In this document: positions 12,962-40,858 of the stretch, piece after piece
How the letters are laid out: every line of letters begins with the position of its first letter
Numbering within the stretch: position 1 is the first letter of the stretch
Origin: Acidimicrobiia bacterium
GTDB taxonomy: Bacteria > Actinomycetota > Acidimicrobiia > IMCC26256 > PALSA-610
NCBI GenBank assembly: GCA_036271555.1
Contig: DATBAK010000002.1
Coordinates: 1-64,000, forward strand
DNA: 64,000 nucleotides
Direction of reading: 5' to 3'
The notes under the pieces: model-generated
The model's database searches: none
Told to the model about the DNA's origin: nothing
The model's input: the letters and a program-made list of their open reading frames with translations, nothing else
Translations under genes and position numbers: made by a program

Positions 12962-13684
12962 TCAGCCCGGCCGGCGCGGCGGGTACGGGCTCGGGTCGAT
13001 GAAGTCGTCGGAGCGACATGCGAGCACCTCGACGTCGGTGCTCGCGACCAGCGCGTCGATCGCGTCGGCGCTCGCGCCGACGTAGGAGCAGTACCCGTCG
13101 ACATCGGTCGCGACGAACCACGCGCGATCCGCCGGCCACCACGCGGTCGGCGACTGGAACCAGCCATCCCTCGATTCGACCGCGATCGCCGCAGTGATCG
13201 GCCCGCGGAAGACGTAGCAATCGCGGTGCTCGAGCCCGAGCTGGGGCTTGCGCTCGGTCTTGAGCTGCTGGATCTCTGACCATCCGTAGCCGACCCACAG
13301 CGCGAAGAAGCAGTCCTCGGGCGTCGCCGTGAAGCCGGCGAGGATCGTCGCGAGCGCGGCGCAGACGGATCGCGGCAGCGAGCCGTCGTCGGGCTGGTGC
13401 CACGGCGGCGGGAGCGTCGAGTGCCGGACGAAGTCGTCGGACAGGCCGACGAGCTCGTTGAACCGAATGTCGGAGTCCAACGCTCGCCCCGCGTACTGCG
13501 ACCAGCGGACCGAGCCCGTGTCGTCACGAAGCGGATGCAGGATGCGGCCGTGCGCGGCGAACGCGGCGGGCACGAGCGACGCGATCCGCAACGGAAGTGG
13601 GTGCCAGGGCCGCAGCGCGAACCGCACCCACACCACGGCGTGGGGATCGTCGTTCCAGTGCAAACCCGGGAAGGCCGCGACCAT
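12962..13684 (-). CDS. Conserved hypothetical protein
   Basis: A 240-residue protein not recognised as a named family. It is rich in aromatic residues (LHWNDDPHAVVWVRFALRPW, FFALWVGYGWSEIQQL, DGWFQSPTAWWPADRAWFVA) and ends in a low-complexity proline/arginine tail. No signal peptide or membrane segment is visible, suggesting a soluble cytoplasmic protein. ATG at 13684 overlaps the stop of the DUF429 gene by one base (TGATG), so the two are translationally coupled and may work together. Function is unknown. Confidence 0.7.
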   Translation of the reverse strand: MVAAFPGLHWNDDPHAVVWVRFALRPWHPLPLRIASLVPAAFAAHGRILHPLRDDTGSVRWSQYAGRALDSDIRFNELVGLSDDFVRHSTLPPPWHQPDDGSLPRSVCAALATILAGFTATPEDCFFALWVGYGWSEIQQLKTERKPQLGLEHRDCYVFRGPITAAIAVESRDGWFQSPTAWWPADRAWFVATDVDGYCSYVGASADAIDALVASTDVEVLACRSDDFIDPSPYPPRRPG

Positions 13685-14454
13685 CAGGCGATCGCACCTT
13701 CGATCGCGGTGATCGGGTCGCGCGCCGATTCGAGTGCGCGCAGCTCGACGCGTCGCTCCCACATCGCGAGCGCGCTCACGACGGCGTCGAAGGCGTCGTC
13801 GGTCGCGATCGCGGCTTCGCGCTCGCGCGCACCGAGCACATCGGCTCCGAACCGTTCGAGGTGACCGGCGCGACCCTCGGCGTCGTTCGTCGCGACCTTC
13901 GCGTAGAGCGACGGGTAGACCTCGAACACCGCGCGATCGCCCATGGCGTCGAAGGGCCACACCGCGATCCCGTCGGCGCGCAGTCGCGCGAGCCCGGGCA
14001 TGCCGCGCAGCGAGCCGGTCGCGACCGCGCCCGCGCCACGAAGTTGGAAGATCGACTTCGGCTGCCGGCCCTGCGCGCGCAACTGCGCCTCACACACGCG
14101 GAAGCGCGCGTCGACGGGGATCCCGCACCGCGTGCCCGCGGGGCCCCAGAACGGCCGTGGGCAATCGCGCAACCACGTCTCACCGTGCGCGGCGACGAGC
14201 GCCCACACGTCGTCGACCGTCGCGCACGCGTGCTCTCGCGCGAACCAGGCCGGGACCGAGAACGAGAAGTCGAGGCCGACGAGCGCGGGCCGGTTCACGT
14301 CTCGCAGCGCGTCGAACACCTCGGCGCGCGTCCGTCCGCCGCGCACCTCCACGACGCGGCCGTCGCGCACGGTCGCGGCGACGATGCGGGCCTGCTGTCC
14401 GCGCGGGGTCCGATCGCCCGACCAGTCGATCGCGATGCAGAGCGGGTCGACCAC
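13684..14454 (-). CDS. DUF429 domain protein (predicted RNase H-like fold)
   Basis: A 256-residue protein. The N-terminal strand CIAIDWSGDRTPRG, then RIVAATVRDGRVVEVRGG and VGLDFSFSVPAWFAREH, carry the acidic positions expected of DUF429, a family placed in the RNase H-like clan on fold grounds. Later acidic segments (AIATDDAFDAVVSALAMWE) fit the last catalytic helix of that fold. No activity has been shown that can be assigned here. Start GTG 14454 lacks a Shine-Dalgarno; a TACGGT box lies 7 bases upstream and overlaps that of the divergent gene. Confidence 0.75.
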   Translation of the reverse strand: MVDPLCIAIDWSGDRTPRGQQARIVAATVRDGRVVEVRGGRTRAEVFDALRDVNRPALVGLDFSFSVPAWFAREHACATVDDVWALVAAHGETWLRDCPRPFWGPAGTRCGIPVDARFRVCEAQLRAQGRQPKSIFQLRGAGAVATGSLRGMPGLARLRADGIAVWPFDAMGDRAVFEVYPSLYAKVATNDAEGRAGHLERFGADVLGAREREAAIATDDAFDAVVSALAMWERRVELRALESARDPITAIEGAIA

Positions 14455-14461
14455 GGTGCCG

Positions 14462-14467
14462 ACCGTA
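14462..14467 (-). promoter_or_regulatory. Leaderless -10 box for the DUF429 gene
   Basis: TACGGT on the minus strand, 7 bases before GTG 14454. It shares the central TA with the plus-strand box at 14466-14471. Confidence 0.5.
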
Positions 14468-14471
14468 GGCT
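14466..14471 (+). promoter_or_regulatory. Leaderless -10 box for the deoxyribosyltransferase gene
   Basis: TAGGCT, 6 bases before ATG 14478. The 23-base gap between the two divergent genes has room for little else. Confidence 0.5.
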
Positions 14472-14477
14472 CTGCCG

Positions 14478-14978
14478 ATGGCGTCGCGCCCGAAGGTGTA
14501 CGTGGCCGGTCCGCTCGGCTTCAGCGAGTCCGGCCGGCGTTATCACGAGTCCGTGGTGCTGCCCGCGCTCGTCGACGCGGGGTTCGAACCGCTCGACCCG
14601 TGGGTGCTCGAAGCCGCCGAGCTCGCAGTGTTCGCGCTCGAACGCGGTCATCGCGACCGCATCGCACGCCTGCCCGACGTGAATCGCGCGATCGGCGCGC
14701 GCAACGCGGAGCTCATCCGCGCCGCATCGTGTGTGCTCGCGATCCTCGACGGCTCCGATGTCGACAGCGGGACCGCCGCGGAGATCGGCTACGCGGCCGC
14801 GCGGTCGCGCCCCGTGGTCGGCCTCCGCACCGATCTGAGGCCGGGCGGTGACAACGAAGCGACGACGGTGAACCTGCAGGTCGAGTGGTTCGTCGAGTCG
14901 ACCGGCGGAACGATCTGCACGACGCTCGACCGCGCGATCCAAGCGCTGACCCGGCTCGTCGCGGCCGGCGGAAACTGA
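14478..14978 (+). CDS. Nucleoside 2-deoxyribosyltransferase family protein
   Basis: A 166-residue protein that would exchange bases on, or hydrolyse, 2-deoxynucleosides. It begins KVYVAGPLGFSESGRRYHES, the family's opening strand and loop, and carries RNAELIRAASCVLAILDGSD followed by VDSGTAAEIGYAAARSRPVV, matching the catalytic Asp/Glu region (the Glu in GTAAEIGYA). Length is normal. The C-terminal third keeps VNLQVEWFVESTGG. It is divergent from the DUF429 gene with a 23-base gap. Confidence 0.85.
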   Translation: MASRPKVYVAGPLGFSESGRRYHESVVLPALVDAGFEPLDPWVLEAAELAVFALERGHRDRIARLPDVNRAIGARNAELIRAASCVLAILDGSDVDSGTAAEIGYAAARSRPVVGLRTDLRPGGDNEATTVNLQVEWFVESTGGTICTTLDRAIQALTRLVAAGGN

Positions 14979-15017
14979 GTGGCAGCGCACGACCGCGGCG
15001 GGCGAGGATCGGCGGCG

Positions 15018-15785
15018 ATGGAATCCGAGGTCCTGGTCGCGCGCGGGCTCGTGAAGGATTTCAAACGCGCGCGGGCGGTCGACGGCGTCGACCTCGTCGT
15101 GCACGCGGGGGAACGACTCGGGCTGCTCGGCCCCAACGGCGCGGGCAAGACCACCACGCTGCTGATGATCCTCGGGGTGATCACGCCCGACATCGGGACG
15201 ATCGAGGTGTGCGGCTTCCGCATGGATCGTCAGCGCAGTCGCGCCGCCGCGCAGATCGGGTTCGCGGCCGGCTACTTGCCGCTCGCAGAACGCATGCGCG
15301 TGCGCGAGTACCTCCGGTTGTACGCGCAGCTCTACGGCATCGCCGACCCGACGCCGCAGATCGAGGAAGGCCTCGAACGCTTCCGCATCCCGCACCTCGC
15401 CGAGGCAATGGGCAACGAGCTGTCGTCGGGGCAGCGCACGCTCGTCGGCATCGTGCGCGCGATGCTGCACCGGCCCCGGCTGCTCGTGCTCGACGAGCCG
15501 ACCGCGTCGCTCGACCCCGACGTCGCCGGGCGCGTGCGCGACGGCCTTCGACAGTTCAGCGACGAAGACGGCACCGCGCTGCTCATCACGAGCCACGACA
15601 TGAACGAGGTCGCGAAGGTGTGCGATCGCGTCGTGTTCCTGTCGCACGGGCGCATCGTCGCCGACGGCACGCCCGACGAGATCGCCGAGCACTACGGGCA
15701 CGGTGACCTCGAAGGCGTGTTCCTCGAGCTCGCGCAGCAACGCCACGACATCCACGACGCGCAACAGACGGATCATCCGCTATGA
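15018..15785 (+). CDS. ABC transporter ATP-binding protein
   Basis: A 255-residue ATPase. Walker A is GPNGAGKTTTLL, the signature LSSGQRTLVGIVRAM, Walker B LLVLDEPTASLDPD and the switch ITSHDMNEV. ATG at 15018 (MESEVLVARGLVKDF) is preferred over GTG 14979, which would add 13 non-conserved residues; GAGGA lies 10 bases before the ATG. It overlaps the downstream permease by 4 bases and with it makes an ABC-2 exporter of the lipid/drug/polysaccharide type. It is 39 bases after the deoxyribosyltransferase stop. Confidence 0.92.
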   Translation: MESEVLVARGLVKDFKRARAVDGVDLVVHAGERLGLLGPNGAGKTTTLLMILGVITPDIGTIEVCGFRMDRQRSRAAAQIGFAAGYLPLAERMRVREYLRLYAQLYGIADPTPQIEEGLERFRIPHLAEAMGNELSSGQRTLVGIVRAMLHRPRLLVLDEPTASLDPDVAGRVRDGLRQFSDEDGTALLITSHDMNEVAKVCDRVVFLSHGRIVADGTPDEIAEHYGHGDLEGVFLELAQQRHDIHDAQQTDHPL

Positions 15786-16594
15786 GTACCGACTCGCGTT
15801 CCCTCGCCTCACTCCGCATGCGCGCGATCGCGCGCCGCCACGCGTACGTGATGGTGCGTAACCCGCACCGCCTCTTCGACGTGAGCCTCTGGCCGCTCGT
15901 CGACGTGCTGCTGTTCGGCTCGCTCGGCGCCTACGTCGGCACCGCGAACGTGAGCGGTCCGCAACGAGCCGCGGCCTACCTCACCGCCGGCATCATCATG
16001 TGGCACGTCGTGTACCAATCGCAGATCGCGCTCAGCACCGGTCTGCTGGAAGAGACCTGGACGCGCAACCTGCTCAACCTCATGGTGACCCCGCTCACCG
16101 AGATCGAGTACGTCGCCGGCGTCGCGCTCTTCGGCATGGTGAAGATGGTGATCGGGCTGAGCGTGATGGTGCTCGCCGCGCTCGCGTTCTTCAGCTTCCA
16201 CGCGTGGTCGCTCGGCTTCGGCCTGATCCCCGTCGCCGCGGTGCTACTCGTCGTCGGGTGGGCGATCTCGCTCTTCGTCATGGGCATCGTGCTGCGCTTC
16301 GGAACCGGGGCCGAAGCGCTCGCGTGGGGGATCATGTTCGTGGTCATGCCGCTCTCGGGCGTCTTCTATCCGGTAAGCGCGCTGCCCGCGTTCTTGCACC
16401 CGGTCGCGCTCGCGCTGCCGACGACGCACGCGTTCATCGCGCTACGCGGGCTCGTCAACGGCAACGGCCTCGACGGCGGTCAGCTCGTGCTCGGTGCGAT
16501 CAGCGCGGTCGTGCTGCTCGCGCTCGGCTTCGCATTCGTCACGCACATGCTGACGGTCTTCCGCAAGCGCGGCCTCGTCACGCGCTACAGCTGA
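15782..16594 (+). CDS. ABC-2 type transporter permease
   Basis: A 270-residue six-helix permease. Helices include FDVSLWPLVDVLLFGSLGAY, AAAYLTAGIIMWHVVYQSQI, VAGVALFGMVKMVIGLSVMV and a pair around LIPVAAVLLVVGWAISLFVM. The sequence GIMFVVMPLSGVFYPVSALP is the conserved ABC-2 loop before the last helices. Translation is coupled to the ATPase by ATGA. The 3' end overlaps the convergent exonuclease III gene by 10 bases. Confidence 0.9.
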   Translation: MSTDSRSLASLRMRAIARRHAYVMVRNPHRLFDVSLWPLVDVLLFGSLGAYVGTANVSGPQRAAAYLTAGIIMWHVVYQSQIALSTGLLEETWTRNLLNLMVTPLTEIEYVAGVALFGMVKMVIGLSVMVLAALAFFSFHAWSLGFGLIPVAAVLLVVGWAISLFVMGIVLRFGTGAEALAWGIMFVVMPLSGVFYPVSALPAFLHPVALALPTTHAFIALRGLVNGNGLDGGQLVLGAISAVVLLALGFAFVTHMLTVFRKRGLVTRYS

Positions 16595-39037: not shown

Positions 39038-39957
39038 GACGCGCTCGCGACCTCGGCCGCGATCAGACGGACGTGGTCGTGATCGGCGATGTCGAGCACC
39101 TGGAGGTACACGGTGTCGGCGCCGGCCTCGCCGTACGCGCCGATGCGGTCGACGATCTCGTTGGGCAACCCTCCGAGATTGTTCGCGCGCAGGCTCGCGG
39201 GGTCCTGTCCGATCGCCGACGCGCGCCGCGCGAACTCCGCCTCGTCGGCACCGCAGCACACCGTCTGCGCGACCGTCATGCGGAGCGTCGCGGGATCGCG
39301 TCCCGCGGCGTCGCATGCGGCGCGCACGCGCTGCACCGCGCTGCCGAACAGCTCGACCGGTGCGAACGGCAGGTTGAACTCGCTCGCGTACTGCGCCGCG
39401 AGTCGCGGCGTGCGCTTCTCGCCCCAGCCGCCGACGATCACGGGAATCGGGCTCTGCACCGGCTTCGGCAGCGCGGGGGAGTCCTTGATCGTGTAGTGCG
39501 CGCCTTCGTAGTCGAAGGTCTCGCCGGTGGGCGTCGACCAGAGCCCGGTGACGATCGCGAGCTGCTCCTCCAGCCGCGCGAAGCGCTCGCCGATCGGTGG
39601 GAACGGGATGCCGTACGCGGCGTGCTCGCCGTCGTGCCAACCGGTGCCGAGCCCGAGCTCGACGCGTCCGTCGCTCATCTCGTCGACCTGCGCAACCGAG
39701 ATCGCGAGCGGTCCCGGGTTGCGGAACGTCACGGGTGTGACGAGCGTGCCGAGGCGGATGCGCGTCGTGTCACGCGCGAGTGCCGCGAGCGTGAGCCACG
39801 CGTCGGTCGGGCCGGGAAGTCCGTCGCCGTCGAACGCCATGTAGTGGTCGGAGCGGAAGAAGGCGTCGAAGCCGAGATCCTCGCTGAGCCGGGCGAGCGC
39901 CGCGAGATCCGAGTACCGCGCGCCCTGCTGGGGTTCGGTGAAGATGCGCAACCGCAT
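39034..39957 (-). CDS. LLM-class oxidoreductase, F420-dependent type (2)
   Basis: A 307-residue paralogue of the downstream gene. It has MRLRIFTEPQQGARYSDLAA, LGFDAFFRSDHYMAFDGDGL, RIRLGTLVTPVTFRNPGPLA, GRVELGLGTGWHDGEHAAYG and IPVIVGGWGEKRTPRLAAQY. ATG 39957 is selected because of a TAGCGT box 7 bases upstream; the frame extends 15 residues further without conservation. The two may act on related substrates or as alternative enzymes. Confidence 0.9.
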   Translation of the reverse strand: MRLRIFTEPQQGARYSDLAALARLSEDLGFDAFFRSDHYMAFDGDGLPGPTDAWLTLAALARDTTRIRLGTLVTPVTFRNPGPLAISVAQVDEMSDGRVELGLGTGWHDGEHAAYGIPFPPIGERFARLEEQLAIVTGLWSTPTGETFDYEGAHYTIKDSPALPKPVQSPIPVIVGGWGEKRTPRLAAQYASEFNLPFAPVELFGSAVQRVRAACDAAGRDPATLRMTVAQTVCCGADEAEFARRASAIGQDPASLRANNLGGLPNEIVDRIGAYGEAGADTVYLQVLDIADHDHVRLIAAEVASAS

Positions 39958-39964
39958 GGGCGGG

Positions 39965-39970
39965 ACGCTA
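39965..39970 (-). promoter_or_regulatory. Leaderless -10 box for the LLM gene pair
   Basis: TAGCGT on the minus strand, 7 bases before ATG 39957. Confidence 0.5.
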
Positions 39971-40012
39971 CCGCGCGCCTTCGGTGCGGCGGCCGGGCGC
40001 ACGTACGAGCCC

Positions 40013-40018
40013 TAAGGT
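40013..40018 (+). promoter_or_regulatory. Leaderless -10 box for the PAC2 gene
   Basis: TAAGGT, 6 bases before ATG 40025. Confidence 0.5.
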
Positions 40019-40024
40019 TCACGG

Positions 40025-40858
40025 ATGCTTCGCGTCGACACGTGGCCCGAGTTGCGCACGCCGGTGATGGTGTTCGCGTTCACGGGATGGGTCGACGCCG
40101 GCTTCGCGGGCACGGGCGCGGTCGCCGCCCTCAGCGACGCGCTCGAATCGGCGCGCCGCTTCGGCGAGGTCGACCTCAGCGAGCTGCTCGACCTCCAGCA
40201 GACCCGGCCGACCGTGCGCATCGCCGAAGGTGGCGTGCGCGCGATCGACTGGCCGCGAGTGGAGCTCTGGGCCGGCACCGCGGGACGCGACGTCGTGCTC
40301 GTGCACGGACCCGAACCGTCGCTGCGGTGGGCGTCGTTCGCCGCCGAGATCGCCGACGCCGCGACGCGTTTGGGCGTCACGCTCGCGATGTCGCTCGGCG
40401 GCATGCCGGTGCTCGCGTCGCACCGCCGGCCGGTTGCGGTGCTCGCGACCGCGACGTCGCGGTCGTTCGCGCAGGAGCTCGGCGACCTGCGCCCCGACTA
40501 CACCGGACCGACCGGGCTCAACACGGTCCTCCAGTACCAGCTCGGTCAGGCCGGCATCCCGACCTTCGGGCTCTGGGCGCAGGTGCCGCAGTACGTGTCG
40601 GGCTCGCCGTCGCCGCCCGCGACGCTGGCCCTGCTCGCGCGCGTCGCGCAGCTCGGGCAGGTCACGATCGACCTCACGGAGCTCGAAGCGCGCTGCACGG
40701 AGTACACGACGCGTGTCGAAGAGGGACTCTCGCAGCGGCAGGACGTGCTCGAGATGGTGAACCGGCTCGAGGCCGCGACGGGAACCGTGCCGTCGGGCGA
40801 CGAGCTCGTGTCCGAGATCGAGCGCTTCCTCCGCTCGCAGCCCGACCAGGACGAGTAA
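40025..40858 (+). CDS. PAC2 family protein
   Basis: A 277-residue protein with the PAC2 fold: PVMVFAFTGWVDAGFAGTGA, VLVHGPEPSLRWASFAAEIA, LGGMPVLASHRRPVAVLATA and GPTGLNTVLQYQLGQAGIPT FGLWAQVPQYV. The family includes archaeal and eukaryotic proteasome-assembly chaperones, and actinobacterial members of unconfirmed role. No proteasome gene is in the window. The C-terminal 80 residues are helical and charged. A PNPOx-like gene starts 3 bases later. Confidence 0.88.
   Translation: MLRVDTWPELRTPVMVFAFTGWVDAGFAGTGAVAALSDALESARRFGEVDLSELLDLQQTRPTVRIAEGGVRAIDWPRVELWAGTAGRDVVLVHGPEPSLRWASFAAEIADAATRLGVTLAMSLGGMPVLASHRRPVAVLATATSRSFAQELGDLRPDYTGPTGLNTVLQYQLGQAGIPTFGLWAQVPQYVSGSPSPPATLALLARVAQLGQVTIDLTELEARCTEYTTRVEEGLSQRQDVLEMVNRLEAATGTVPSGDELVSEIERFLRSQPDQDE

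Follow-up and report, generated by a model that had tools for sequence, protein, structure and literature searches.

A 23-nt gap between divergent genes as a probable leaderless bidirectional promoter with a TA common to both -10 boxes

Main finding

The gap between a DUF429 gene and a divergent nucleoside 2-deoxyribosyltransferase-like gene in an Acidimicrobiia bacterium is, in all likelihood, a leaderless bidirectional promoter of the ~23-bp class, judging by its sequence and that of its relatives (the window, in what follows, is the whole stretch analyzed, 64,000 nt of contig DATBAK010000002.1 from assembly GCA_036271555.1). What we observe directly is the geometry of the sequence, its conservation and a genome-wide excess at exactly that spacing. 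Bacterial bidirectional promoters are already known, as are leaderless genes preceded by TANNNT; what is added here is their fusion into a gap that is all promoter, an order-wide excess at the exact spacing, and the survival of this arrangement with a changed partner gene.

Geometry of the gap

Read directly from the sequence, the 23 nt at 14455-14477 are GGTGCCGACCGTAGGCTCTGCCG, and the core ACCGTAGGCT (14462-14471) holds both hexamers, TACGGT on one strand and TAGGCT on the other (Table 1). The TA in the middle is its own reverse complement and its base pairs are used by both hexamers, so this gap shows what defines a bidirectional promoter, namely opposite-strand -10 boxes that share bases (14466-14467). 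It also shows what is expected of leaderless genes, with TANNNT 6-7 nt before the start codon on both sides (7 nt and 6 nt). The preliminary description of this DNA had already pointed to a 23-base gap with TACGGT and TAGGCT sharing two bases, which the direct reading reproduces, and it had placed both boxes at leaderless distance, in agreement with the peak seen across the window. Leaderless spacing is a real signal there, with TANNNT peaking at 6-7 nt: among 16 boxes found 0-19 nt upstream (372 candidate starts, 53 coding-like ORFs), five lie at 6 nt and six at 7 nt. Among 1,000,000 shuffled versions of the gap, 193 carried the core with a spacing of 6/7 or 7/6 nt, and the shared-TA arrangement is not a chance product. 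A sigma-70 scan for TTGACA/TATAAT gave no match, as would be expected of a promoter without a -35 box.

In alignment, the start of the DUF429 protein coincides with that of five homologues, and M1 is invariant. On the other side, an in-frame TAG (14466-14468), itself part of the shared box, is separated from ATG 14478 by three codons, so the deoxyribosyltransferase start cannot lie much further upstream.

Table 1. Features of the gap, of its flanking genes and of a second divergent pair in the window
Feature	Position	Strand	Remarks
Predicted -10 box TACGGT, DUF429 side	14462..14467	-	7 nt upstream of GTG 14454
Predicted -10 box TAGGCT, deoxyribosyltransferase side	14466..14471	+	6 nt upstream of ATG 14478
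TA common to both -10 boxes	14466..14467		Positions -12/-11 of each box; kept in own genome and five relatives
Probable leaderless bidirectional promoter, whole gap	14455..14477		Equivalent gaps in five relatives
DUF429 gene	13684..14454	-	Start GTG 14454; PF04250, E 1.9e-08; putatively leaderless
Nucleoside 2-deoxyribosyltransferase-like gene	14478..14978	+	Start ATG 14478; PF05014 (Nuc_deoxyrib_tr), E 9.7e-21; putatively leaderless
ABC-transporter ATPase gene	14979..15785	+	PF00005, E 5.4e-26; longest ORF, from GTG 14979
ABC-2 type membrane protein gene	15782..16594	+	PF12698/PF01061; the former operon's second gene
Luciferase-like monooxygenase gene	ATG 39957	-	TAGCGT 7 nt upstream
PAC2 gene	ATG 40025	+	TAAGGT 6 nt upstream

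We infer from this geometry transcription in both directions, the start codons as +1 and exclusive binding of polymerase. With outward-facing TANNNT boxes whose first two base pairs (TA) are common, polymerase could bind either way but only one at a time, and transcription would start 6-7 nt past each box, with the first base of a start codon as +1 (the A in ATG 14478, the G in GTG 14454), so that neither mRNA would carry a 5' leader. A -35-region contact, if either gene has one, would fall inside the opposite gene, and interference would be expected only when one direction is activated. The predicted separation of the start sites, as taken from the start codons, is 24 bp, against the 7-25 bp that characterize prokaryotic bidirectional promoters.

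The window also contains a second divergent leaderless pair (39957-40025, gap of 67 nt), in which a luciferase-like monooxygenase gene and a PAC2 gene each have a separate box (Table 1).

Conservation in relatives

Homologues of the DUF429 protein were found in seven of 60 relatives, while a profile run against 58 genomes from the order matched in nine, in one of them weakly (G002). In six of the seven relatives with a homologue, DUF429 is divergent to an ABC-transporter ATPase gene that is followed by an ABC-2 membrane gene, and these ABC genes are orthologous to the two that follow the deoxyribosyltransferase gene in the window. Across 41 DUF429 loci from all genome contigs, an ABC partner near DUF429 occurs only in the window's own family.

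When the gaps of relatives are compared by anchoring on the start codons, five of the seven (G001, G008, G011 and G013, all of one genus, and G003) keep the pattern CAY-N6/7-ANNNTANNNT-N6/7-RTG. In these five, which belong to two other genera, the gap measures 22-23 nt and an A-NNN-TA-NNN-T core lies 6-7 nt from both starts. The inner triplets vary by lineage (AGCCTACGGT in our genome, ACGGTACCTT in genus g2, ACCGTAGCGT in G003), whereas A, TA, T and the distances remain constant. The number of independent lineages is three including the window, four of the five conserving relatives being one genus.

The arrangement can evidently be lost, since in G007 the DUF429 gene faces the ABC gene over a 56-nt gap that lacks the shared core, and in G014 no divergent DUF429/ABC pair is present at the DUF429 locus. 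A Shine-Dalgarno-like GAGG precedes the ABC ATG in G007 (loci L002 and L137), as if one side had changed from leaderless to led. At the DUF429 locus of G014 (L005, around 2428-2650), direct repeats of TATTGGCACCAC reach into an N stretch beside the gene.

Spacing across genomes

The shared-TA geometry places 22-24 nt between start codons, in keeping with the spacing classes preferred by bidirectional promoters (10, 18, 23 bp), and its excess was tested in 61 genomes. All genome-wide figures are counts of pattern sites with spacing controls, not of annotated gene pairs, and the main set comprises 57 high-GC genomes, namely our own and its relatives minus four (G022, G033, G039 and G060) with very high counts that were taken as AT-rich. 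In these 57 genomes the pattern occurs at 273 sites, six of them in our own genome. With core and gap length unchanged but the core moved off-centre (3-4 and 9-10 nt), the counts fall to 29 and 36 according to orientation, and a 9-10/9-10 nt control gives 38. Our own genome holds none for any of the three controls (0, 0, 0), and, according to which control is taken, 52 to 54 of the 57 genomes have more main than control sites. The spacing signal is weak in the four AT-rich genomes (100 main sites vs. 72-86 in controls); over all 61 the figures are 373 against 115, 110 and 110.

The composition control lends no support and counts against the case. A core of equal composition, TNNNATNNNA, in which TA is replaced by AT, is not rarer than the main one (111 vs. 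92 in the family, 305 vs. 273 in the main set, rising to 469 when all 61 genomes are counted). We take AT to be much commoner than TA in coding DNA and attribute the high counts of TNNNATNNNA to this difference; the case was therefore rested on the spacing controls, in which the core is held fixed. The pattern read backwards, which occurs six times in our own genome and thus equals the main count of six, was dropped as a control because it is not bounded by start codons.

Sharing of the TA is also favored over separate boxes. The shared-TA form reaches 68 sites per spacing combination in the 57 genomes. Leaderless pairs whose two boxes stand apart, separated by 0-30 nt, have 365 forward sites spread across 62 combinations, or 5.9 each, and the ratio is approximate given that the two patterns fix unequal numbers of bases. 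The 18-bp geometry (TANNNTA) occurs at 74 sites in the same 57 genomes as a raw count, so that among leaderless pairs the 23-bp form leads by 273 to 74, whereas in E. coli the 18-bp class is in the lead (PMC12825309). Phylum-wide, among the matches listed, 14 of 74 typed sites fall at 6-7/6-7 vs. 4.6 expected (4 of 64 spacings); these sites come from four genomes, a single site in a fifth having been set aside, and the excess is suggestive only.

A check for genes at the pattern sites gave coding-like ORFs from both start codons at 15 of 25 evaluable sites of the main search and at seven of 26 for the 9-10 control. These evaluable sites derive from 30 main loci (five had been shortened and showed no site at their centre) and 29 control loci. 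Three further main loci (L032, L033 and L035), from genomes of 57-58% GC, have long ORFs on both sides that failed the third-position rule. By inspection, three of the six sites in our own genome have good ORFs on both sides: that of the window, a polyketide-cyclase-like/PHP pair and an SGL/2-hydroxyacid dehydrogenase pair.

In L032, L033, L034 and L035 (genomes G028, G046, G038 and G043), genes for a KaiC/RadA-like ATPase and a HAD-hydrolase apparently lie across a shared-TA gap. ORF lengths and gap sequences match in all four genomes, which are of one genus, and protein families were scanned for L032 only. This gap would appear to be an independent conserved case.

Expression of the two genes and alternative readings

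The preliminary description went on to argue that one polymerase site would exclude the other and that expression of the two genes should consequently be coupled or mutually exclusive. This argument is partly supported. Its first part agrees with what is accepted for bidirectional promoters in general, at which opposing polymerases are described as unable to bind simultaneously (PMC12825309). The second does not carry over, for in that study none of the five E. coli promoters examined had enough basal transcription for the two directions to compete, and the partner was repressed only under strong activation of one direction (PMC12825309). Basal expression of the DUF429 and deoxyribosyltransferase genes would probably be close to independent, since promoters of such weakness stand unoccupied most of the time; exclusivity may occur under activation but is not to be expected.

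A stronger claim, compatible with a bidirectional promoter, would be that the shared TA makes expression mutually exclusive, as a seesaw set by polymerase occupancy. Overlapping -10 boxes cannot hold two polymerases, at bidirectional promoters of E. coli the activated direction tends to repress its opposite (PMC12825309), and the shared-TA geometry is favored over separate boxes. The low basal activity of the five E. coli promoters, at which no rise of one direction upon loss of the other was observed (PMC12825309), speaks against it, however, as does the lack of any apparent opposed function of the DUF429 and deoxyribosyltransferase genes, and the preference for this geometry could equally reflect compaction or co-expression. 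We consider such a seesaw unlikely.

It is also conceivable, if quite improbable, that only one promoter is real and that the other hexamer is a by-product of TA symmetry, its gene being started inside the neighbor. TANNNT has just three fixed bases and the sigma-70 scan was without a match, both of which would fit this reading; however, both boxes lie at leaderless distance, five relatives keep both directions with each leading into a gene, and the excess needs correct spacing on both sides (29-36 sites off-centre vs. 273 in the 57 genomes). Instead of or besides forming -10 boxes, the core could be a palindromic operator recognized by a DNA-binding regulator, a reading that has very little chance of being right. 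The core is nearly palindromic in genus g2, but its inner triplets vary across lineages around an A, TA and T that are constant and lie at fixed distances to both starts, and operators are not expected genome-wide at 6-7 nt from start codons.

Relation to known promoters

Bidirectional promoters have been described in E. coli and Salmonella (Warman, Grainger; PMC12825309, PMC10268837), and they resemble the gap studied here in that -10 boxes on opposite strands overlap, one polymerase binds at a time and the promoters often lie between divergent genes. Their start-site separations are commonly 10, 18 and 23 bp, with small variations allowed (PMC12825309), so that the predicted 24 bp of the window are near their 23-bp class. 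If two boxes have the TA in common and each lies 6 nt from its start, the separation comes to 23, and equating the ~23-bp class with a shared TA is a geometric argument of ours. The earlier view that two -10 boxes here have two bases in common is well supported by the relatives, by the strong genome-wide spacing preference and by agreement with this class (PMC12825309). In contrast to the enterobacterial promoters, both mRNAs would here be leaderless, the promoter would be the intergenic region itself, and the boxes are TANNNT without a -35 element.

The gap likewise resembles the leaderless TANNNT genes of Actinobacteria, in which a -10 box lies at leaderless distance and the -35 element is weak or absent (Zheng, 2011, PMC3160421; Cortes, 2013, PMC3898074). 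In the parts of these studies available, single genes are treated and shared -10 bases are not described. The accessible text on M. tuberculosis gives TANNNT without a -35 motif as the main promoter, and reports closely juxtaposed divergent promoters, including the Rv1130/Rv1129c pair, which is leaderless on both sides (PMC3898074). Literature searches on leaderless and bidirectional or divergent promoters, which covered titles and abstract openings of mostly open-access papers, returned no description of shared-TA leaderless pairs.

The present arrangement would extend bidirectional promoters to about their most compact form, with two start codons and one promoter in ~23 bp. As a recurring class (six pattern sites in our own genome, three with good genes on both sides), such gaps without leaders or operators form a natural test set for steric competition and expression noise. 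The positions are separable, as 14466 and 14467 would belong to both promoters, 14462 to the DUF429 side only and 14471 to the deoxyribosyltransferase side only.

Change of partner gene

In the window, the deoxyribosyltransferase gene occupies the position held in relatives by the ABC ATPase gene, and the ABC operon comes after it. This placement between promoter and ABC operon was seen in our own genome only, among those examined, and the gene is absent at this place in the seven family members with a close homologue of the ABC-2 protein (69-71% identical). Nor was a link between the deoxyribosyltransferase and DUF429 found elsewhere: matches occur in eight of the 61 genomes (three of them weak), and only that of our own adjoins DUF429. 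The simplest reading of gene order, and the most likely, is that the deoxyribosyltransferase was inserted at the ABC side in the window's lineage. Its ATG would then have taken over the old start-site position of a promoter unit that formerly served DUF429 and the ABC-transporter operon. Trees of the two ABC proteins leave most inner forks open and do not discriminate between orders of gain and loss of the deoxyribosyltransferase.

More tentatively, the leaderless gap of 22-24 nt with its shared TA may be a selected standard unit across this actinobacterial order, one that links divergent genes so that both are available together or expressed with little noise, and whose core is kept while lineages swap the gene on one side; we regard this as possible but doubtful.

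The start of the displaced ABC ATPase gene deserves mention. Homologues begin at the equivalent of MESEVLVARGLVKDF, which leads to ATG 15019 as the likely start, ~40 nt past the deoxyribosyltransferase stop. GTG 14979 lies directly after that stop, and automatic annotation may pick the wrong ABC ATPase start.
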